The position numbers and the translations under genes are program-made. Below are positions 6,855 through 50,286 of a stretch of 56,291 nucleotides of DNA, piece by piece; position 1 is the stretch's first letter, and every line of letters starts with the position of its first letter. The stretch spans positions 1 through 56,291 of the forward strand of contig VGCZ01000034.1 of the NCBI GenBank assembly GCA_016869975.1, in the 5' to 3' direction. Origin of the DNA: Alphaproteobacteria bacterium (GTDB taxonomy: Bacteria; Pseudomonadota; Alphaproteobacteria; Reyranellales; Reyranellaceae). Under the pieces are notes generated by a model. The model searched no databases, had not been told where the DNA came from, and saw nothing but the letters and a program-made list of their open reading frames with translations.

Positions 6855-8309
6855 ATGGGAGCACGCACGGGCCGGCAGTTCCTCGACGGGCTGCGTCGCA
6901 CACAGCGCGAGATCTGGGTCGATGGCGAGCGTATCGCCGACGTCACGGCGCATCCCAAGCTGGCCGGCGGCGCCAATAGCCTGGCGGCGATCTTCGATCG
7001 CCAGCACGCGTATGCCGCCGATTGCCTCTACACCGACCCACAGAGCGGCGAGCCGACCAATGTCAGCCACATGATCCCGCGCTCGCGCGAGGATCTGCGG
7101 CGGCGCCACGCCGGGCTGGTGCGGCTGTCGGAAGGCTCGATGGGCATCATGGGCCGTACGCCCGATTACATGAACATGAAGTTCGCCGCCTTCGCCTCCG
7201 CGCCCGCCGTGTGGGCCGGCGCCGACGGACGCAATGAACGCGGCGCGCGCAACATCGTGGCGTTCCAGCGCCACCTCGCCAAAGCCGACACCGCGCTGAC
7301 CCACACCATCATCCAGGCGACGATCGACAAGCGCACCGATGCGCGCGTCGTCGGCAACAGGGCCGCCATCCGCAAGGTCGGCCAGACCGACAAGGGCATC
7401 ATCGTGCGCGGCGCGCGCGTGCTGGCGACGCTGGCGCCCTACGCCGACGAGCAGACGGTCTATCCCAGCCAGCCGCTGCCGCCGGAGGCCACCGACTACG
7501 CGCTGTCCTTCGCCATTCCGCTCGACACGCCGGGCCTGGTCTTCCTGTGCCGCGATTCGGCCGCCGCGCCCGGCGCCGATCCCTTCGACAAGCCGCTGTC
7601 GTCGCGCTTCGACGAACAGGACGCCTTCTGCATCTTCGACGACGTGCTGGTGCCGTGGGAGCGCGTGTTCATCGATGGCGACGTGGCGATCTACAACTCG
7701 CTGCGCGAGACCGGCTACGCCATCGGCATGACGACGCAGTCGACCATCCGCGCGCTGACCAAGCTGGAGTTCGCCTATGGCCTCGCCAGCCGCATGGCGG
7801 AGCTGATCGGCGATCGCTCGCCCGCCACGACCGAGATGCTGGGCGAGCTGGCCTGCTACGTGCGACTGACCGCCAACGCGCTCGAGCTGTCGCTGGAGAA
7901 GGCCTGGCAGCGCGCCGACGGCGTGTGGTTCCCAGACGGCGCGGTGCTCGATCCGATGCGCTCGATGCTGCCGGTGTGGATGCCCAGGGTGGCCGAGATC
8001 ATCACCCTGATCGGCAGCCACAATCTGCTCACCACGCCCAGCCGGGCGCAGCTCCACGATCCGAAGCTGCGGCCCCTGATCGACGAGATGCTGCACGGCG
8101 CCGACGGCGCCGCGGCCGACGAGCGCGCCCAGGTCTTCCGCATGGCCTGGGATTTCGTCGGCTCCTCGCTGGGCGGCCGCGGCTTTCTCTACGAGCGCTT
8201 CTATCTGACCTCCGCGTCGCGCAACAAGCAGATGCTGCACGAGCGCTTCTTCGACCGCCGCCGCGCACGCGCCCTGCTCGACGACATGCTGTCGCGCGCC
8301 CAGCGCTGA
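6855..8309 (+). CDS. HpaB-family FADH2-dependent monooxygenase
   Basis: A 484-residue member of the 4-hydroxyphenylacetate 3-monooxygenase large-subunit family, which also contains 4-hydroxybutyryl-CoA dehydratase and other acyl-CoA-dehydrogenase-fold flavin enzymes. The N-terminal RTGRQFLDGLR, the central IPLDTPGLVFLCR and the SRFDEQDAFCIFDDVLVPWERVF block are characteristic. These are two-component enzymes using reduced FAD supplied by an HpaC-type reductase. No reductase gene is adjacent, so it must be elsewhere. A good GGAGGG lies before the ATG. Substrate unknown. Confidence 0.9.
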   Translation: MGARTGRQFLDGLRRTQREIWVDGERIADVTAHPKLAGGANSLAAIFDRQHAYAADCLYTDPQSGEPTNVSHMIPRSREDLRRRHAGLVRLSEGSMGIMGRTPDYMNMKFAAFASAPAVWAGADGRNERGARNIVAFQRHLAKADTALTHTIIQATIDKRTDARVVGNRAAIRKVGQTDKGIIVRGARVLATLAPYADEQTVYPSQPLPPEATDYALSFAIPLDTPGLVFLCRDSAAAPGADPFDKPLSSRFDEQDAFCIFDDVLVPWERVFIDGDVAIYNSLRETGYAIGMTTQSTIRALTKLEFAYGLASRMAELIGDRSPATTEMLGELACYVRLTANALELSLEKAWQRADGVWFPDGAVLDPMRSMLPVWMPRVAEIITLIGSHNLLTTPSRAQLHDPKLRPLIDEMLHGADGAAADERAQVFRMAWDFVGSSLGGRGFLYERFYLTSASRNKQMLHERFFDRRRARALLDDMLSRAQR

Positions 8310-8433
8310 GCGATCAGCAGGGCGCCGCTCCGCCGAGCAAGGCGCGACGATCGATCATGTCGTTCCGAACACTACCATACCCGCCGCCGACAGCGGATCC
8401 CGGCGACGACGGGAATAGTCATTGGCGTCCAGG

Positions 8434-9120
8434 TCATGCAACCTTCCGGCCGCGAACGATCTTACCACCCTGCAAGGCCCATTCCTGCCCGCCCAGATCG
8501 ACCGCGCGAATCTTGCTCTCGTCGGTGGTCCCGACGACCGCTGCCGCACCGGCCGCCATCCAGGCTTGCGGCGCCGCCTCAATGCCCGCGAAGTCATCGA
8601 GCCCCTCGAGCCGCCGAAAGAAGCTTTCCTGCAGCGCACCGCCGCCCAGCATGTTGTCGACGAGCGACGGATCCGTCGTTCCATTGAATCCGAGCAACAC
8701 GTGGCGACCGAACAACATCCGCATGTGGTGCATGACACTGACGGAGTTGCACACGGAGCACCCACCCCAGAGGACAAGCCAAGTCTTGGACTGAAGCGCG
8801 AAGCCACCGCCATTCGGCTTCAGTTCGGCGCTCTCCCCACCCGCCTTGACGCTGATGCGATCCCCGTCGAACGCGATGGTGACGTCGATCGCGTCATTGT
8901 ACAGCTTACGCTTCTGCCCCGTGTCGTCGCCCATGATGAAGTGACCGCCGAAGTAAACCCAGCTGGCGGGGCGCGCGAAGAAGTTCTTTAGGTCCGTCAG
9001 GGTCGGCTTCGGATTCCGTATCGACCAGACCTTGCTCATGCCCAGGCCCGCGCATCCCTTTTCCCAAGTCGCCGCGTCGCGACGGGTACCAAGGCAAAGA
9101 GTCGAGTAGCTGAAATCCAT
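8434..9120 (-). CDS. Caspase/CHAT-like small protein (hypothetical cysteine peptidase fold)
   Basis: A 228-residue protein with no family I can name outright. It has the ordered landmarks of the caspase/CHAT fold: a beta strand ending in VYFGGHF with H60, a charged linker, a hydrophobic strand WLVLWGGCSVC with C121 or C124, and then GRHVLLGFNG. In CHAT and metacaspase proteins a strand leads into GHG, a second strand into ACxS/T, and a third into a V(I)GWxG-type segment. The stand-alone architecture without sensor or repeat domains is unusual. AAAGG lies 8 bases before the ATG. It is convergent with the HpaB-like gene and downstream of the GMC oxidoreductase. The fold call is inference; the coding call is fairly firm. 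Confidence 0.75.
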   Translation of the reverse strand: MDFSYSTLCLGTRRDAATWEKGCAGLGMSKVWSIRNPKPTLTDLKNFFARPASWVYFGGHFIMGDDTGQKRKLYNDAIDVTIAFDGDRISVKAGGESAELKPNGGGFALQSKTWLVLWGGCSVCNSVSVMHHMRMLFGRHVLLGFNGTTDPSLVDNMLGGGALQESFFRRLEGLDDFAGIEAAPQAWMAAGAAAVVGTTDESKIRAVDLGGQEWALQGGKIVRGRKVA

Positions 9121-42391: not shown

Positions 42392-43222
42392 CTACTTCAG
42401 CGGAAAGCCCAGCGCGTTGAGCCAGGGCCGCATCTTCTCGCGGCCGGTGACGGCGGCGATGCGTTGCTTGATGCGTGCGGTCCACGATTCGGTCGGCAGG
42501 TTCTGACGGCGCGAGAAGGCGCCCAGGGTCTCGTCGTAGCGCGCGATATGCGCGTCCTCGCCGGCCCGCTTGTAGGTCTCTTGATGCAGGATGGCGGCCT
42601 GCGGCAGGCGCGGCTTGACCTCGGCCTTGGCGGCGGGATCGGCGTAGCCGATACACAGGCCGAAAATGCCGAAGGCGCCGGGCGGCAGGTCGAGCAGCCT
42701 GGCCACCGACTGCGGATCGTTGCGCATGGCGCCGATATAGACCATCGACAGGCCCAGCGACTCCGCCGCAACCACCGCGTTCTGCGCCGCCAGCGCCGCG
42801 TCGACAGCGGCGACCAGGAAGGTCTCGGTCCACGGCAAACCGTTGGTGCCCGACCCATGCTTCTCGCCGATGCGCTCCAGCCGCGAGAGGTCGGCGATGA
42901 ACACCATGTAGAGCGGGCAGTCCTCGATGTGCTTCTGGTTGCCGGCGATGCGCGCCAGCTCGCGGCGCTTGGCCGGATCGTCGACCACGACCACCGACCA
43001 GGCCTGCAGATTGGAGCTGGTCGAGGCCGACTGCGCCGCCGCGATCATCGTCTCCAGGGTGCCGGCGGGCACCGGCGTGGGCAGGAAACGGCGCACCGAG
43101 CGATGACCCAGCAGCACGCCGATGGTCTCGTTCCAACGCCCGGCCGCCGGCACGGCGTCGGCGCCGTAGCGCGCCGTCAGCGCCGCGCGCTTGTCGTCGG
43201 CCACCTGGGTGATCGTATCCAT
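42392..43222 (-). CDS. Nitroreductase-family flavoprotein (NfsA/FRP-like)
   Basis: A 276-residue FMN-dependent NAD(P)H reductase. The flavin-binding region LLGHRSVRRFLPTPVP, the SASTSSNLQAWSVVVV segment and the GIFGLCIGYADP block are those of the NfsA/FRP branch. It would reduce nitro-, quinone- or flavin substrates. It is convergent with the aldo/keto reductase and 32 bases downstream of the 2OG oxygenase gene stop on the same strand. Confidence 0.92.
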   Translation of the reverse strand: MDTITQVADDKRAALTARYGADAVPAAGRWNETIGVLLGHRSVRRFLPTPVPAGTLETMIAAAQSASTSSNLQAWSVVVVDDPAKRRELARIAGNQKHIEDCPLYMVFIADLSRLERIGEKHGSGTNGLPWTETFLVAAVDAALAAQNAVVAAESLGLSMVYIGAMRNDPQSVARLLDLPPGAFGIFGLCIGYADPAAKAEVKPRLPQAAILHQETYKRAGEDAHIARYDETLGAFSRRQNLPTESWTARIKQRIAAVTGREKMRPWLNALGFPLK

Positions 43223-43254: not shown

Positions 43255-44361
43255 CTAGGCTTGGTCGCTCTTCGACTCGACGAAGACCAGGTTGCGCTGG
43301 CGCAGCTCCGCGTCGTCGTCGGCATAGAGAAAGGGCAGATAGGCGTAGCGCGTGCCCGCCGCGACTTCCGTGGCCTCGTGCAGCAGCGAGCAGGAGAACA
43401 CCACGGCGCCGCCGGTCGGCGCGCGATAGGTACGCGCGCCATATTCGGGGAAGCGCAGATCGCCACCCTGGTAGTCGTCGGCGTTGAGATTGATGGTCAC
43501 GGCGAAGCGCCGATGCGCGGTGCCCTTGGTCGTGTTGTCGCGATGCGGGCGGAAGAAGCCGCCTTCCTGCGCGTCGTAGCGCGCCACGATGTGGCGCTCG
43601 ATGCGCGTGGCGTTGAACTGGAAGGCGCGGCGGATCTCCGGCACCAGCCGGTCGTGGATGCGGGTCGTCGCCGCGGTGCGCAGCCGCGCATCGTCGATGG
43701 CGCAGTCGCGCCGGCGCTTGAAACCATGATCGAGCACACCGACCGTCTTGCCGTCGCGCTCGCGCATGAAGCCCGAGTCTTCGCCGCCTCTGGCGTCGTA
43801 GTAGTCGATCAGCGCGCGGCAGAGCTCGGGCTCGAAGACGCGCTCGACCACGAGCACCGGCGCGTGGCCTAGGCTGTCGAAGCCGCGCTGGAAGGCATCG
43901 AGGCGACGCAGCCCGGTGACGATCGGCGCGAGATGCGGCTGGCCGGGCGTCGGCTCGAGCGTCTGCAGCAGCCGCAAGGTGCGGTCGACAACGAAGGTGC
44001 GGGCGAGGACCGTATCGCCGCCCTCGGGCACCAGCCCGTAGAGCCGTGCGGCGGCGTTCTCGTAGTCCATGAAGTAGCGGATGCCGGGCGTGTCCTGCGC
44101 GATGCCGAGCTCGGCGACATGCTCGGGCCGCGCGACCACCCAGAACAGCCCGGCGAGGCGATCGTCGAAAGCCGCGCGCACGGCGCGCGCCTCGGCGAGC
44201 AGGGCCCGCGCCGCGGCAGTCGGCGGCGAGCCGAGGAAGACCAGCACCAGGTTGCGGCCGGCGGCGGCGTTGAGGTGGAAGCGCGGGTTCTGCGGCGTCG
44301 CCAGGACGAAGTCGGCCACGCGCTCGCCGAACGCGGGCGGGCGGTGCGGCGCGGCGCTCAC
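43255..44361 (-). CDS. Peroxiredoxin-like domain fused to a 2OG-Fe(II) oxygenase
   Basis: A 368-residue two-domain protein starting at a GTG (44359-44361) that overlaps the TGA of the MFS gene. Residues 1-135 resemble an AhpC/TSA-like thioredoxin fold (LVLVFLGSP, VARPEHVAELGI, FVVDRTLRLL) but no peroxidatic Cys is present. Residues 165-368 form a prolyl-4-hydroxylase-like jelly roll: H273-x-D275 in FFRPHRDNT, distal H328 in SLLHEATEV and R338. It would hydroxylate a protein or small molecule using 2-oxoglutarate. Its coupling with a Fsr-type MFS gene is notable. Confidence 0.88.
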   Translation of the reverse strand: MSAAPHRPPAFGERVADFVLATPQNPRFHLNAAAGRNLVLVFLGSPPTAAARALLAEARAVRAAFDDRLAGLFWVVARPEHVAELGIAQDTPGIRYFMDYENAAARLYGLVPEGGDTVLARTFVVDRTLRLLQTLEPTPGQPHLAPIVTGLRRLDAFQRGFDSLGHAPVLVVERVFEPELCRALIDYYDARGGEDSGFMRERDGKTVGVLDHGFKRRRDCAIDDARLRTAATTRIHDRLVPEIRRAFQFNATRIERHIVARYDAQEGGFFRPHRDNTTKGTAHRRFAVTINLNADDYQGGDLRFPEYGARTYRAPTGGAVVFSCSLLHEATEVAAGTRYAYLPFLYADDDAELRQRNLVFVESKSDQA

Positions 44362-45587
44362 TCGGCCGGCGTGGCCGCGGGGGCCGGTTGCGGCTTGGGC
44401 CGGGTGATCACGGTAATCATCGCCAGCAAGATGAAGACCGTGACCAGCGCGAAGACCATGCGCGGTTCGCCGCGGTCGAGCAGCCAGGCGTAGAGCAGCG
44501 GCGCGATCATGCCGCCGATGTTGAAGCCGGTGGAGACGAAGCCGAACACCTTGCCGAAAGCGCCCGGCGGCGTCACCGAGCGCACGATCATGTCGCGCGA
44601 GGGCTGGATGATGCCGTTGAGGAAGCCGCCCAGCGACATCGCCGCGATCAGCGCCGCCGCGCCGAGGTCGCCCCAGCCGACAGCGACGATCATGGTCGAC
44701 GTCGCGAGGAAACCGGCCGCGGCGATGCGCTCGTGCTTGCTCGTGCGGTCGGCGAGGATGCCACCCAGCAGCACGCCGGCGGCGCTCATCAGCAGGTAGC
44801 CCGACAGCGCGATATTGGCGATCGAGGCCGGCGTGCCGTTCATCTGGCCCAGCGCCACCACAGAGAAGGTCTGAATGCCGCCGCCCGACAGCGCCAGCAG
44901 GACGAAGAAGAACAGGTTGCGCAGGATCGGTGCCGACAACAGCAGATCGAGCCCGGCCTTGCCCGCGGTCTGGCTGCCGCTCTCGCGGCGCACCGCGGCG
45001 CTGACCGACAGCGGCGCACCCCAGATCGCCAGCGCCGCCACGACGAGGGCAGCCATCGCGGCGGCGACGTAGTAGGCACCCTGCCAGCCGGCATAGGCGG
45101 CGCAGAACAGCACACAAGCTGGTGCCACGCCCGAGCCGAAGAAGCCCGAGAAGGTATGGAAGGAGAAGGCGCGGCCGGCCTTCTGGGCTGCGATCTTCGA
45201 TGACAGGATCGCGTAGTCGGCGGGGTGATAGACGGTATTGGCCAGGCCCAGCAGGGCGTAGGCCGCGATCAGCATCCAGTAGCTCGGGAAGGTCGCAGCC
45301 AGCAGCAGGGCGACCACGCCGATCGTCATGCCGCCGATCAGCATGGGCCGCGCACCGACGCGGTCGACCAGGAAGCCGGCGGGCGTCTGCAGCAGGGCGG
45401 AGATCACATTGAAGGCGGTCAGCACCGCGCCCAGCGCCACATAGCTGACGCCCAGCTCGGTCCGCACCACCTCGAACACCGGCGGCAGCAGCAGCAGATG
45501 GTAGTGGCTGATGAAATGCGCGGAGCAGACCAGGCCGACGATCCTGGCCTCGTGCCCCCTGCTCGCCCCTTGCTCGGACTCGGCCAT
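44358..45587 (-). CDS. MFS transporter (fosmidomycin-resistance-like)
   Basis: A 409-residue 12-segment major facilitator resembling Fsr/AraJ-type exporters. The first segment has HFISHYHLLLLPPVF and the loop before the third has DRVGARPMLI, the conserved cytoplasmic motif. The ATG at 45587 gives a normal N-terminus; the frame is open further upstream but non-homologous. It shares a GTGA overlap with the downstream oxygenase gene and is divergent from the selenoprotein gene at 45751. Confidence 0.9.
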   Translation of the reverse strand: MAESEQGASRGHEARIVGLVCSAHFISHYHLLLLPPVFEVVRTELGVSYVALGAVLTAFNVISALLQTPAGFLVDRVGARPMLIGGMTIGVVALLLAATFPSYWMLIAAYALLGLANTVYHPADYAILSSKIAAQKAGRAFSFHTFSGFFGSGVAPACVLFCAAYAGWQGAYYVAAAMAALVVAALAIWGAPLSVSAAVRRESGSQTAGKAGLDLLLSAPILRNLFFFVLLALSGGGIQTFSVVALGQMNGTPASIANIALSGYLLMSAAGVLLGGILADRTSKHERIAAAGFLATSTMIVAVGWGDLGAAALIAAMSLGGFLNGIIQPSRDMIVRSVTPPGAFGKVFGFVSTGFNIGGMIAPLLYAWLLDRGEPRMVFALVTVFILLAMITVITRPKPQPAPAATPAE

Positions 45588-45750
45588 GCGCGCTGTCGCT
45601 TCCTCCGCCGGCCGTGCCGGCTGGCGGAACCTAATGCAGGCGCGGTCTTCTCGCCAGCGGCACGGGGCATGGGTGCCCGGCGCCTCGGGCATGTCGCGTC
45701 GGCGCGGCCAACCGACTATAGTGCTGCGGTCAGTGGGAGGATCCGAGCGC

Positions 45751-46698
45751 ATGGACGAGAACAAGCAGGACGGGCTGGGCTTCGCCGCCGAGTACGACCG
45801 GCCGATCCCCTACATGCAGCGCATCCGCGACTACTACGTCACCTTGGGCTATGGCACGCCCTATCGCTGGGCCAACTATGCCGACGTGCCATTCACCAAG
45901 CCGACGAAGCCCCTGTCGGAAAGCCGCGTCGCGCTGATCACCACGGCCGCGCCGTACCAGCCCGACAAGGGCGACCAGGGGCCGGGCGCCGCCTACAACG
46001 CCGGCGCCAAGTTCTACACGGTCTACTCGGGCGACACCGCGGCCGAGCACGACCTGCGCATCTCGCACATCGGCTACGACCGCCTCCACACCACGGCCGA
46101 GGACAGCAACACCTGGTTCCCGCTGCCCGCGTTGCGGCGGGCCGCCGCCAAAGGCCGTATCGGCGAGATCGCGCCGCGCTTCCACGGCGCGCCGACCAAT
46201 CGCAGCCACGTCACGACGCTCGATGTCGACTGTCCCGAATTGCTGGCCAGGTGCCGCGCCGACAATGTCGACGCGGCGATCCTGGTCCCCAGTTGACCCG
46301 TCTGCCACCAGACCGTGAGTCTGGCCGCCCGTCACCTCGAGGCCAACGGTATCCCGACCGTGATCATGGCCTGCGCCAAGGACATCGTCGAATTCGCCGG
46401 CGTGCCGCGTTTCCTGTTCAGCGATTTCCCGCTGGGCAATTCCTGCGGCAAGCCCAAGGACGTCGCCTCGCAGGATCTGACGCTGGAGCTGGCGCTTGGC
46501 CTGCTCGAAAGCGCCACCGGCCCGCGCACGACGATGCAATCGCCGCTGCGCTGGAAGGACGACGCCTCGTGGAAGCTCGACTTCTCGAACATCGAGAAGA
46601 TGTCGCCCGAGGAAATCGCCCGCCGCCGCGCCGAATTCGATCGCCAGAAGGCGATCGCCAAAGGCATCCGCGAGAGCGGCGCGAAGGCAGCGGACTGA
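45751..46698 (+). CDS. GrdB/PrdB-like selenoprotein (in-frame TGA as selenocysteine)
   Basis: A 315-residue protein in one continuous frame if the TGA at 46294-46296 is read as selenocysteine (residue 182), giving ILVPS-U-P-V-C-HQT, a UxxC redox motif. Before it lie YDRPIPYMQRIRDYY, ALITTAAPYQP and the FYTVYSGDT to YDRLHTT region. After it, SLAARHLEANGIPTVIM, CAKDIVEFAGVPRFLFSDFPLG, and a C-terminus SPEEIARRRAEFDRQKAIAKG. This matches the glycine/betaine/sarcosine/D-proline reductase selenoprotein B family; I recall proteobacterial relatives with Cys (CPVCHQT) at this site. Without recoding, the second half lacks a good start and ribosome site. GGGAGG lies 11 bases before the ATG. No grdA/prdA partner is present. 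Confidence 0.85.
46297..46333 (+). promoter_or_regulatory. SECIS-like hairpin downstream of the in-frame TGA
   Basis: Directly after the TGA, a perfect 6-bp stem CCAGAC / GTCTGG (46308-46313 and 46319-46324) closes a 5-base loop CGTGA. The loop starts 17 bases after the TGA and its second base is G. The E. coli fdhF SECIS has a similar spacing (about 18 bases) and a loop G. TGAC (46294-46297) and GTCA (46330-46333) could add an outer pairing. The hairpin lies within codons of the same ORF. Confidence 0.7.
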
Positions 46699-46704
46699 TT
46701 TGAC

Positions 46705-46730
46705 TACCTTCCCCGCTGGCGGGGAAGGTA
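46705..46730. repeat. Dispersed palindrome, family C
   Basis: TACCTTCCCCGC-tg-GCGGGGAAGGTA, perfect arms of 12 bases; between the convergent selenoprotein and efflux genes. No T-tract. Confidence 0.9.
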
Positions 46731-46737
46731 AGCGCCA

Positions 46738-48126
46738 TCACGGCGGCAGCTTGCCGTCCCAGCCGCCGCCCAGCGCCTTGTAGAGATCGACCAGCGCGGC
46801 AAGCTGCGAGAGCTGCGCCTGCACCACGGCGTCGTCGGTCGCGATGATGCTGCGCTGGGCGTCGAGCACCGTAAGGAAATCGACCGTGCCGGCGCGGAAG
46901 CGCAGATCGGCGAGGCGATAGGCCTCGCGCGCCTGGGTGCGCGCCTCGCGCGCGGCGGCGAGCTGCTGACGGAACAGAGTGGCGCCGCTGAGCGCGTTCT
47001 CGACATCGCGGAAAGCAGACAAGGTCGCCGTCCGGTACGTCTCCATCAGCTCCTCGTAGCGCGCCTGGCTGAGCTGCTGTTGCGCACGCAGCCGGCCGCC
47101 TTCGAAGATCGGCGCCGTCAGGCCGCCAACCAGGGTCAGGAGGAAACTGCCGGGGCCAAACAGGCCGGACAGCGCGGTGCTGGCCGTGCCGCCATCGACG
47201 GTGAGCTGGATGCGCGGAAAGCGCGCGGCGCGCGCCGCCGCGATGTCGAGATGAGCCGCCTTGAGATCGGCCTCGGCGCCGCGCACATCCGGGCGGCGGA
47301 GCAGCAGTTCCGAGGGGATACCGCCGATCACCGGCGGCGTGGCGAGCGCGGAGAGACGCTGGCCGGCCACCTCGAAGTTCTGCGGCAGGCGGCCGAGCAG
47401 CAGCGCCAGCGTGGAGAGCGTCTGGCGCTCGACCTGGCGCAAGGCCGGGATCGTCGCGCTTTGCTGCGCCACCGAGACGCGCTGCTGCGCGACCTCGAGA
47501 TCGGACGCGGTGCCGATACGCCGCTGCTCGTCGAGCAGCAGCAGCAGCCGGCGCGAGGTGTTGAGCGACTCGGTGGCGAGCGCGATGCGCTCGCGCAGCG
47601 CCAGCAGCTGGAAGTAGCTCAGCGCGACGTTGGCGCTGACCGTCAGCGCCAGCGCTTCCTGGTCGTAACGGCTGGCCTCAAGCCGAGTCAGCGCGGCGCT
47701 CTCCGTCGCATGGATGCGACCGAACAGATCGACCTCGTAACCGACCGAGAGCCCCGCCTGATAGTTGGTCGTAGTCGTCGTGCGGGTCGAGCCGAAACGG
47801 GTGGTGCGCGAGACCGAGGCGTCGGTGCCCAGGTTGGGGTAGATCGCCGCGCCAGCGATTTGGGTATTGGCGAGCGCCTGACGCACCCGCGCCACAGCGA
47901 CGCGCAGATCGAGATTGCCTGCGCTCGCTTCGTCCATCAGCCGGTCGAGTTCGGGGCTGGCGAAGCCCCGCCACCAGGCTGTGTCAGGCCAGACCCCGCT
48001 GCCGTCGCTGGTCGACTGCCAGTTGGCCGGCCGCGCGATCTCGGGCTTGGTCCACTCGTCCCACAACGAGCAGCCACCCAAGGCCGGAGCCAGCAGCAAA
48101 GACAGAACGGCGCCACGACGCTTCAT
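46738..48126 (-). CDS. Outer-membrane efflux lipoprotein (NodT/TolC-like)
   Basis: A 462-residue outer-membrane factor of RND/MFS-type efflux systems. The lipobox is LGGC with the lipid-modified Cys at residue 19. Two repeats of the OEP domain follow (about 60-240 and 260-450), with NLDLRVAVARVRQALAN and LTRLEASRYD marking the first coil pair. It would form a trimeric channel and pair with an inner-membrane pump, but no membrane-fusion or RND gene is adjacent. The ATG at 48126 is chosen over a TTG three codons earlier. Confidence 0.93.
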   Translation of the reverse strand: MKRRGAVLSLLLAPALGGCSLWDEWTKPEIARPANWQSTSDGSGVWPDTAWWRGFASPELDRLMDEASAGNLDLRVAVARVRQALANTQIAGAAIYPNLGTDASVSRTTRFGSTRTTTTTNYQAGLSVGYEVDLFGRIHATESAALTRLEASRYDQEALALTVSANVALSYFQLLALRERIALATESLNTSRRLLLLLDEQRRIGTASDLEVAQQRVSVAQQSATIPALRQVERQTLSTLALLLGRLPQNFEVAGQRLSALATPPVIGGIPSELLLRRPDVRGAEADLKAAHLDIAAARAARFPRIQLTVDGGTASTALSGLFGPGSFLLTLVGGLTAPIFEGGRLRAQQQLSQARYEELMETYRTATLSAFRDVENALSGATLFRQQLAAAREARTQAREAYRLADLRFRAGTVDFLTVLDAQRSIIATDDAVVQAQLSQLAALVDLYKALGGGWDGKLPP

Positions 48127-49215: not shown

Positions 49216-50286
49216 CTACGCGCTCACCTGCGCGATTCCCCCGCGCAGTCGGCCGGCTTCGATCTCGCGCCACAGCACTTCGTGGCCCACCGGCAGCGCG
49301 CGGTTGTTGGGCATGCAGAACCACAGGCGCATCAGCAGGCGGCTGTGGCCTGTCTCGAACTCGTCGGTGAAGGCCGTGCGGCCATGATAGGTGACGTGGC
49401 TGTTGATCAGCTGCAGGTCGCCCGGCTCGAGTGTCATCTCGAAGGCGAGCTCCTCGGCGGTCGCCATGAGCAGATCGATCGCTTCGCGCTGCGCCGCCGT
49501 GAGCTTCGGCACGCCGGGCACCAGCTCGGCCGCCTCAATGAAGGTCAGCGAGTAATGGCTGGTGAGCTTGCCATCGCGTAGGCCGAAGATCGGCAGCTTG
49601 TAGACGGTCGAGGGGTCCTTCGACTCCTCGCCCAGCCGGCTGCGATAGAAATCCTCGAACAGCACGTCGAGCAGATCCGGCCGCTTGGCGAGAATGGCGT
49701 TGTGGATCGCGCCGGTGCTGCACAGCCGGCTGACGCCGCCCGACTTGGCCTGGCGCACGCAGAGCAGGCCAACCACGTCGGTGCGGTCGGTGTGGAAGCG
49801 CAGCAGGTTGTTGGTCAAGGTGCGGGCGTAGGACGACAGGAAGGTGCCGCTCTGGCCCTTGGCGTCCGTGGTCCGCACCTGGCCATAGGTGCGGCCGACA
49901 TGAGCGCCCTCGTCGCGGATGAATCGCATCAGCTCGCCGCTGCGATTCTGGAAGACCGTGGTGCCGAGATGCTGGCCGAAGCCGTAGTAAAGCTGCCGCA
50001 GCTCATCCTCGCTGTACCTGTCGACCGGCATGCCGCGCAGCTTGACCATGCCGCATCCGTCCTCGAGCTCGTCGCGGATATCGTCGAACAGCGGGCCCAG
50101 CGCGGGCAGCGGGAAATCGGCCTTGGTGATCGACCACCATTCCAGGCCGCAGCGCTTCACGCCCTGCAACGCGGCGTCGATCTCGGCCGCCGCGCCCGCC
50201 GGCAGGTCGCGAATCCACCGGCGCGACTGGACGATGTCGCGGCCCAGCCAGACGCTGGGTCCGGTCAAGGGCATACGCTTGCTCAT
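49216..50286 (-). CDS. TauD/TfdA-family dioxygenase
   Basis: A 356-residue Fe(II)/2-oxoglutarate oxygenase of the TauD/TfdA type. The metal triad is His and Asp in RFHTDRTD and the distal His in NSHVTYHGR, with the 2OG Arg in RLLMRLWF. Length is slightly above the usual 280-300 because of the N-terminal segment before FPLPALGPLFDD. The substrate is unknown; relatives act on sulfonates, aryloxyacids or trimethylated amines. The start is the ATG at 50286. Confidence 0.93.
   Translation of the reverse strand: MSKRMPLTGPSVWLGRDIVQSRRWIRDLPAGAAAEIDAALQGVKRCGLEWWSITKADFPLPALGPLFDDIRDELEDGCGMVKLRGMPVDRYSEDELRQLYYGFGQHLGTTVFQNRSGELMRFIRDEGAHVGRTYGQVRTTDAKGQSGTFLSSYARTLTNNLLRFHTDRTDVVGLLCVRQAKSGGVSRLCSTGAIHNAILAKRPDLLDVLFEDFYRSRLGEESKDPSTVYKLPIFGLRDGKLTSHYSLTFIEAAELVPGVPKLTAAQREAIDLLMATAEELAFEMTLEPGDLQLINSHVTYHGRTAFTDEFETGHSRLLMRLWFCMPNNRALPVGHEVLWREIEAGRLRGGIAQVSA

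Follow-up and report, generated by a model that had tools for sequence, protein, structure and literature searches.

A probable stand-alone selenoprotein of the GrdB/PrdB superfamily in an alphaproteobacterial genome

The product of a gene at positions 45751-46698 of the window (the whole stretch of 56,291 nucleotides that was analysed) is most probably a stand-alone GrdB/PrdB-superfamily selenoprotein, in which the UGA at codon 182 would be decoded as selenocysteine (Sec). From sequence comparison, a probability of about 0.9 is assigned to this reading.

The gene and its reading frame

Four features define the gene:

45735..45740, + strand: GGGAGG, probable ribosome-binding site, proposed from sequence alone, with a spacer of 10 nt to the ATG at 45751
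45751..46698, + strand: GrdB/PrdB-like putative selenoprotein gene, 315 codons and a stop, with Sec at codon 182; assigned from the frame, read-through, the Pfam GRDB and NCBIfam PrdB matches and purifying selection
46294..46296, + strand: in-frame TGA, the putative Sec182 codon; TGA or a Cys codon is kept in orthologues, and the codon aligns with the Sec of PrdB and GrdB
46303..46305, + strand: TGC codon for Cys185, the second half of the UxxC motif, nearly invariant in the family alignment

From the ATG at 45751 to the stop TGA at 46696-46698 the frame has a single interruption, the TGA at 46294-46296. Reading through it gives a product of 315 residues with U182-P-V-C185, in the context VPS-U-PVCHQTVSLAARHLE. 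The frame therefore bears out the first-pass annotation of this DNA, which had joined two open reading frames (ORFs) across the TGA at 46294 into a 315-residue protein with U182-x-x-C185 and had placed the parts on both sides in the same family. The part before the TGA scored 38.5 bits against Pfam GRDB (PF07355), passing the cut-off of 22, with a match that spans residues 34-179 and only profile positions 202-345 of 347. The best NCBIfam match of the read-through protein was the PrdB model TIGR04483 (82.2 bits, cut-off 300); it covers residues 48-256 and runs across the TGA. Compared with three same-genus orthologues, all with TGA at codon 182, dN/dS was 0.10-0.19 before this codon and 0.04-0.15 after it. 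An in-frame UGA inside what appears to be one conserved protein, the mark of a selenoprotein gene, was thus found. No tRNA was found in the window by ARAGORN, and in 45500-47000 nothing scored above an Rfam gathering threshold.

Selenocysteine or cysteine at column 182 in relatives

Within the window's order, 74 of 76 genomes had a family match at an E-value of 1e-10. Close orthologues (70 rows with at least 65% identity, from 69 genomes) had a TGA in 64 rows and no stop in six by hand count, and these six (L034, L048, L049, L065, L066 and L067) all have Cys at column 182. Their sister genomes in the order have Sec, and together they form natural Sec/Cys pairs. Cys was likewise found at this column in the fetched Bradyrhizobium relatives (69-73% identity), so that the Cys which the annotation had placed in proteobacterial relatives is indeed present, both there and in the six orthologues of the same order. 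The best 80 loci of a genome scan, which gave 588 or more, included Reyranella, Enhydrobacter aerosaccus, Desertibaculum, Siccirubricoccus and many Bradyrhizobium. The orthologue of E. aerosaccus ATCC 27094 (L171) carries this TGA as well. Reyranella and E. aerosaccus are aerobes.

The Sec of five PrdB and four GrdB sequences from Bacillota aligned to the Sec182 column of the window protein, where the active-site motifs read UGTCHR in PrdB, UGTCTRC in GrdB and UPVCHQ in the window protein. Alignment to GRDB-family members had been named beforehand as a check on residue 182, and it returned only Sec/TGA or Cys among the fetched members, with one member (L229) unmatched: its only TGA, at residue 155, is near the expected place, and the motif pattern did not match there. 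This comparison supports the assignment of Sec182 to the column of the D-proline and glycine reductase Sec.

The gene is not a lone one. It is one of four TGA-form members in its own genome, the others being the C37 (48% identity), C10 (38%) and C58 (33%) paralogues, and the family is spread through the Alphaproteobacteria. Elsewhere, Sec paralogues with a UPLDHQT motif, which lacks the second Cys of UxxC, were observed at L058:772-1587, L059:4793-5602 and L060:8588-9421, each directly preceding a UPVCHQT paralogue; L101 has a CPLDHQT variant. The two tandem paralogues could possibly form a heteromeric pair.

Gene neighbourhoods, structure model and proposed mechanism

The window gene is flanked by three genes on the opposite strand:

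43255..44340, - strand: 2OG-Fe(II) oxygenase ORF behind the MFS gene (PF13640, 46.8 bits)
44358..45752, - strand: divergent MFS transporter ORF (PF07690, 154.2 bits)
46738..48126, - strand: convergent outer-membrane efflux protein gene (PF02321, 156.3 bits)

The first two had been proposed without database searches and are real by their Pfam matches. The true start of the MFS gene is probably internal, because the ORF extends to the start of the selenoprotein gene. The minus strand of the window also carries a nitroreductase-family gene (42392-43222) and a TauD/TfdA-type dioxygenase gene (49216-50286).

Among 89 loci whose downstream sequence was long enough, 60 had a class III CoA-transferase gene directly downstream on the same strand, namely 15 of the 25 Sec forms and 45 of the 64 Cys forms; a representative scored 398.7 bits against PF02515. 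Genes for Bug-type and Dpp-type transporters, recognised by eye, lay divergent in relatives. No CoA-transferase gene adjoins the window gene or its relatives L061 and L102 of the same genus, and these two share with the window the divergent MFS gene and the convergent outer-membrane efflux gene.

Among the paralogues in the same genome, the C37 paralogue comes after a luciferase-like monooxygenase and a nitroreductase, the C10 paralogue overlaps the end of a rhodanese ORF and is followed by transporter genes, and the C58 paralogue comes after a propionate-CoA ligase. No neighbour gene common to all four was seen, and for this reason no substrate can be named from the neighbourhood. The rhodanese ORF, at the end of which the C10 paralogue starts, resembles 3-mercaptopyruvate sulfurtransferase (L055:7221-8105 and 8110-8973), and 31 Bradyrhizobium-type loci have a similar ORF some 7 kb downstream of their Cys-form gene.

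The structure model (pLDDT 91.2, pTM 0.89) places Sec182 between a strand (175-179) and a helix (183-198), and the N-terminus of a helix after a strand is a usual site for a nucleophile. Foldseek of the model against the PDB gave no match at an E-value of 0.001 or better, and a sequence search of PDB chains gave no matches at 0.1. The best row of a second structural comparison, the core of a LacI-type repressor (Z 8.7, rmsd 3.6, 143 residues), was considered and set aside, as the likeness may reflect only a common arrangement.

From the alignment, the model, the neighbours and the known chemistry of PrdB and GrdB, a reductive displacement can be tentatively proposed, although the odds of the whole mechanism being right as stated are somewhat below even. 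Sec182 and Cys185 would form a selenol/thiol pair at the helix N-terminus. In a small organic acid, the selenolate would attack the electrophilic carbon that adjoins a carboxyl or carbonyl group and displace the substituent of this carbon; Cys185 or a partner thiol would then resolve the adduct, leaving a reduced acid and an Se-S bond. The enzyme would be reset by a reductant of the glutaredoxin or thioredoxin type. In relatives with the downstream class III CoA-transferase, the substrate or product acid may be handled as a CoA ester; as this gene is absent beside the window gene, L061 and L102, the mechanism rests on relatives. In the known reductases, amino-acid substrates are held by a pyruvoyl group on a subunit of the PrdA/GrdE type. 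Such a subunit was not found in the order, and the substrate is therefore probably not an amino acid bound via a pyruvoyl group.

The main rival on mechanism accepts the Sec and makes the protein a thiol-redox or detoxification enzyme, whose U-x-x-C would reduce an electrophile, a peroxide or a disulfide. It draws on the glutaredoxin gene directly after the tandem paralogue pair in two of three loci (L059 and L060, not L058), on the nitroreductase genes found both close to the window gene and next to the C37 paralogue, on the efflux gene adjoining the window gene and on the rhodanese that accompanies the C10 paralogue. In relatives, however, the neighbour seen most often is the CoA-transferase, which together with the divergent Dpp- and Bug-type transporters points to catabolism, and a redox role is considered rather unlikely.

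Selenocysteine machinery and the SECIS-type hairpin

The window's assembly (G000) is a 96-contig draft of 4.84 Mb, rated 100% complete. The presence of selA, selB, selC and selD, on which the first-pass annotation had let its reading depend, was established: all four lie on contig C16 within about 8.2 kb. The matches were 269.9 bits for selD, 473.6 bits for selB and 71.9 bits (Rfam) for the tRNA-Sec (selC), for which ARAGORN gave the anticodon tca; the selA ORF was identified by sequence and position and not by a model.

A hairpin was located eleven nucleotides 3' of the UGA:

46308..46324, + strand: SECIS-type hairpin with arm CCAGAC (46308-46313), loop CGTGA (46314-46318) and arm GTCTGG (46319-46324)

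It was compared in 162 of 165 rows (81 Sec and 81 Cys, of which 60 and 78 were distinct), the duplicate loci L001, L002 and L024 being left out. The full six-pair stem was present in 57 of the 60 distinct Sec-form sequences and in none of the 78 distinct Cys-form sequences; these sequences are mutually related, the Cys forms equally so, and the counts are not independent events. The loop CGTGA was found in 55 of the 60. Of 360 stem cells, 357 were paired, against 243 ± 7 (maximum 266) in 500 resamplings of synonymous codons from the same genes, and pairing fell from 99% to at most 35% when the partner arm was slid by 1-3 bases. Among sequences that all encode the peptide PVCHQTVSL, the stem was present in 52 of 54 Sec forms versus none of 11 Cys forms. 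Two-sided changes were observed, one pair occurring as GC, AT and CG and another as CG, TA and GC; at three stem pairs most of the two-sided base changes stem from one sequence, the C58 paralogue. For distant paralogues of this type the test is weaker: among 17 further Sec forms, five had all six pairs and 12 had five, and three Cys forms had 5, 4 and 2 pairs.

In bacteria, a SECIS element is a hairpin that directly follows the UGA and has a G at loop position 1 or 2. The placement of the hairpin and its loop CGTGA agree with this description, less well in the C58-type paralogues.

The same letters could be read as two proteins, with a stop at the UGA and a restart at the GTG at 46315, which lies in the hairpin loop. 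The downstream ORF does have a GTG start at this position, and the valine codon is GTG in 59 of the 60 Sec-form sequences. This GTG, however, has no purine-rich ribosome-binding site upstream. The stem pairs outside it are kept as well, including the rare serine codon AGT of PVCHQTVSL, which is used in 54 of 54 Sec forms versus one of 11 Cys forms. Cys-form relatives moreover have one continuous frame, and selB tracks the TGA forms. A restart is thus very improbable. Comparison supports decoding of the UGA at codon 182 as Sec, by the SelA/SelB/tRNA-Sec/SelD system with the SECIS-type hairpin.

Family tree and co-occurrence with selB

In the family tree, the PrdB clade (support 99/98, five sequences) and GrdB (100/100) stood apart from the alphaproteobacterial set, which had a support of 94/84 and was not starred. 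Sec and Cys members were intermixed within this set. The C58 type formed a long branch at its base, and the program warns of long branches.

The separate position in the tree bears on the possibility that the gene encodes a true D-proline reductase subunit PrdB. Its best NCBIfam match is indeed PrdB, and the Sec and the CH motif align. Its score is nevertheless far below the cut-off of that model, its identity to PrdB is about 30-33%, and PF09338, the model for the GrdE/PrdA-type subunit, was matched in none of the 76 genomes of the order. As a positive control, two clostridial records were used, and in both of them this model detected GrdE-type genes as well as the gene that occupies the PrdA position. 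Its being a true PrdB is a slim chance, slightly slimmer than that of a restart.

Co-occurrence with selB was assessed in a draw of 385 alphaproteobacterial genomes, of which 50 had a family member at an E-value of 1e-10 and 54 had selB. By a split made by hand, 38 of the 50 had a Sec-form member and 12 had Cys forms only. selB was found in 34 of the 38 and in none of the 12 (Fisher p = 1.5e-8). A residue check gave TGA at the column in 37 of the 38 Sec-form genomes, L229 being the remaining one, and Cys in all 12 Cys-only genomes; in one class genome (G165) there is additionally a Cys-form member, L096, for which the TGA listed is at another position. The Sec-form genomes without a selB match at 1e-70 were G086, G337, G386 and G410, where, as in every genome, only three selB candidates were scored. 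G086 is 77% complete; the other three are listed as at least 95% complete, and in these either selB was missed or the machinery was lost. A draw of 398 genomes from the phylum gave 16 with a family match, and the three outside the Alphaproteobacteria (L218-L220) were all Cys forms.

A distant TGA-form paralogue of about 395 residues (UP-x-CT) was observed near selA, selB and tRNA-Sec in all eight alphaproteobacterial loci L200-L207, which were picked since the class searches placed this paralogue and selB on one contig. By hand count it lies within about 15 kb of selB in 12 of the 38 Sec-form genomes. The copy of this type in the window's own genome (L012:4933-6120) is not on the sel contig.

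Two last explanations have a negligible chance: a pseudogene or sequencing error, which the draft state of the assembly could suggest, is already contradicted by the same TGA in independent assemblies, the low dN/dS on both sides and the matched hairpin, and insertion of tryptophan or some other amino acid at the UGA, a reading with nothing found in its favour, conflicts with a column that is Sec/TGA or Cys in the counted members (the motif of L229 being unmatched) and with the tRNA-Sec in the genome.

Literature and significance

The gene had been called overlooked, which holds in part. As given in the available text of the ocean metagenome surveys, 42 Sec-containing 'proline reductase PrdB' sequences with UxxC were counted in the Sargasso Sea in 2005 (PMC1088965), and 235 Sec and 110 Cys forms of 'PrdB' (pfam07355) in 38 GOS samples in 2008 (PMC2398784). 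Proline reductase and GrdB are also listed as selenoproteins in the accessible parts of the surveys of 2006 and 2016 (PMC1794560, PMC5029168) and of the reviews of 2022 and 2026 (PMC9312934, PMC13188914). What stands of the claim concerns the alphaproteobacterial clade: no description of it in Alphaproteobacteria was found in the literature searched, which left subscription papers and supplements outside its scope. Sec-containing 'PrdB' is thus already known, and on the strength of that literature the stand-alone clade of Alphaproteobacteria counts as a new variant.

According to the available portions of two papers, fdhA was the only selenoprotein of the Sec-decoding Alphaproteobacteria surveyed by Zhang in 2006 (PMC1794560), and formate dehydrogenase was given as the primary role of Sec in this class by Mukai in 2021 (PMC8124441). 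In the class sample described above, 34 of the 54 genomes with selB had at least one Sec-form family member (hand count). The balance tips slightly towards a broader reading. In it, Alphaproteobacteria living with oxygen would possess an entire clade of GrdB-like selenoreductases that stand alone and need no PrdA/GrdE, with four paralogues in the window's genome and, in other genomes, a distant type beside the sel locus. Their selenium-dependent chemistry would be one not recognised so far, and in many lineages it would be linked to a class III CoA-transferase. They would also account for a major use of Sec in a class where its role has been ascribed to formate dehydrogenase.

Annotation programs that end a gene at TGA would report such a gene as two pieces. 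Some Sec/Cys orthologue pairs come from a single bacterial family and share their neighbour gene, and such natural pairs would make the advantage of Sec over Cys testable. The CoA-transferase neighbour would offer a handle on the substrate.

Relation to known reductases

PrdB of D-proline reductase has the same domain, Sec column and U-x-x-C-H motif as the window protein, with 30-33% identity over 60-64% of the latter. The window protein differs from PrdB in having UPVCHQ instead of UGTCHR, in being longer at both ends and in forming part of its own clade, and its 82.2 bits compare with an equivalog cut-off of 300 for TIGR04483. GrdB of glycine/sarcosine/betaine reductase (PF07355, TIGR01917, TIGR01918) also has its Sec in the same column, and the Pfam GRDB cut-off was passed through the C-terminal part of the profile. 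The window protein has 315 residues, whereas the GrdB models have 431-435; it scored 41.3 bits against TIGR01917, with an equivalog cut-off of 602.2, and likewise stayed below the cut-off of TIGR01918. The first-pass annotation had seen no grdA or prdA partner nearby. In the order, besides the result for PF09338 given above, the GrdA model (PF04723), used without a positive control, gave no match in the 76 genomes. By the tests made, the window protein is neither D-proline reductase nor glycine reductase, although its active site follows the same plan.

Close named relatives are the RefSeq proteins called 'glycine/sarcosine/betaine reductase selenoprotein B family protein' from Roseomonas haemaphysalidis (66% identity) and Haematobacter massiliensis (59%), which align over 92-93% of the window protein and both have Cys at the column. 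This name expresses a family resemblance and not a tested function. The 'proline reductase PrdB' of the Sargasso Sea and GOS surveys, as described in the text available from them, has UxxC, pfam07355 and Sec and Cys forms side by side, as found here; it came from surface-ocean samples, was called proline reductase and is given there without a stated host group. Likened by description and not by sequence, these marine proteins and the window gene possibly belong to the same clade.
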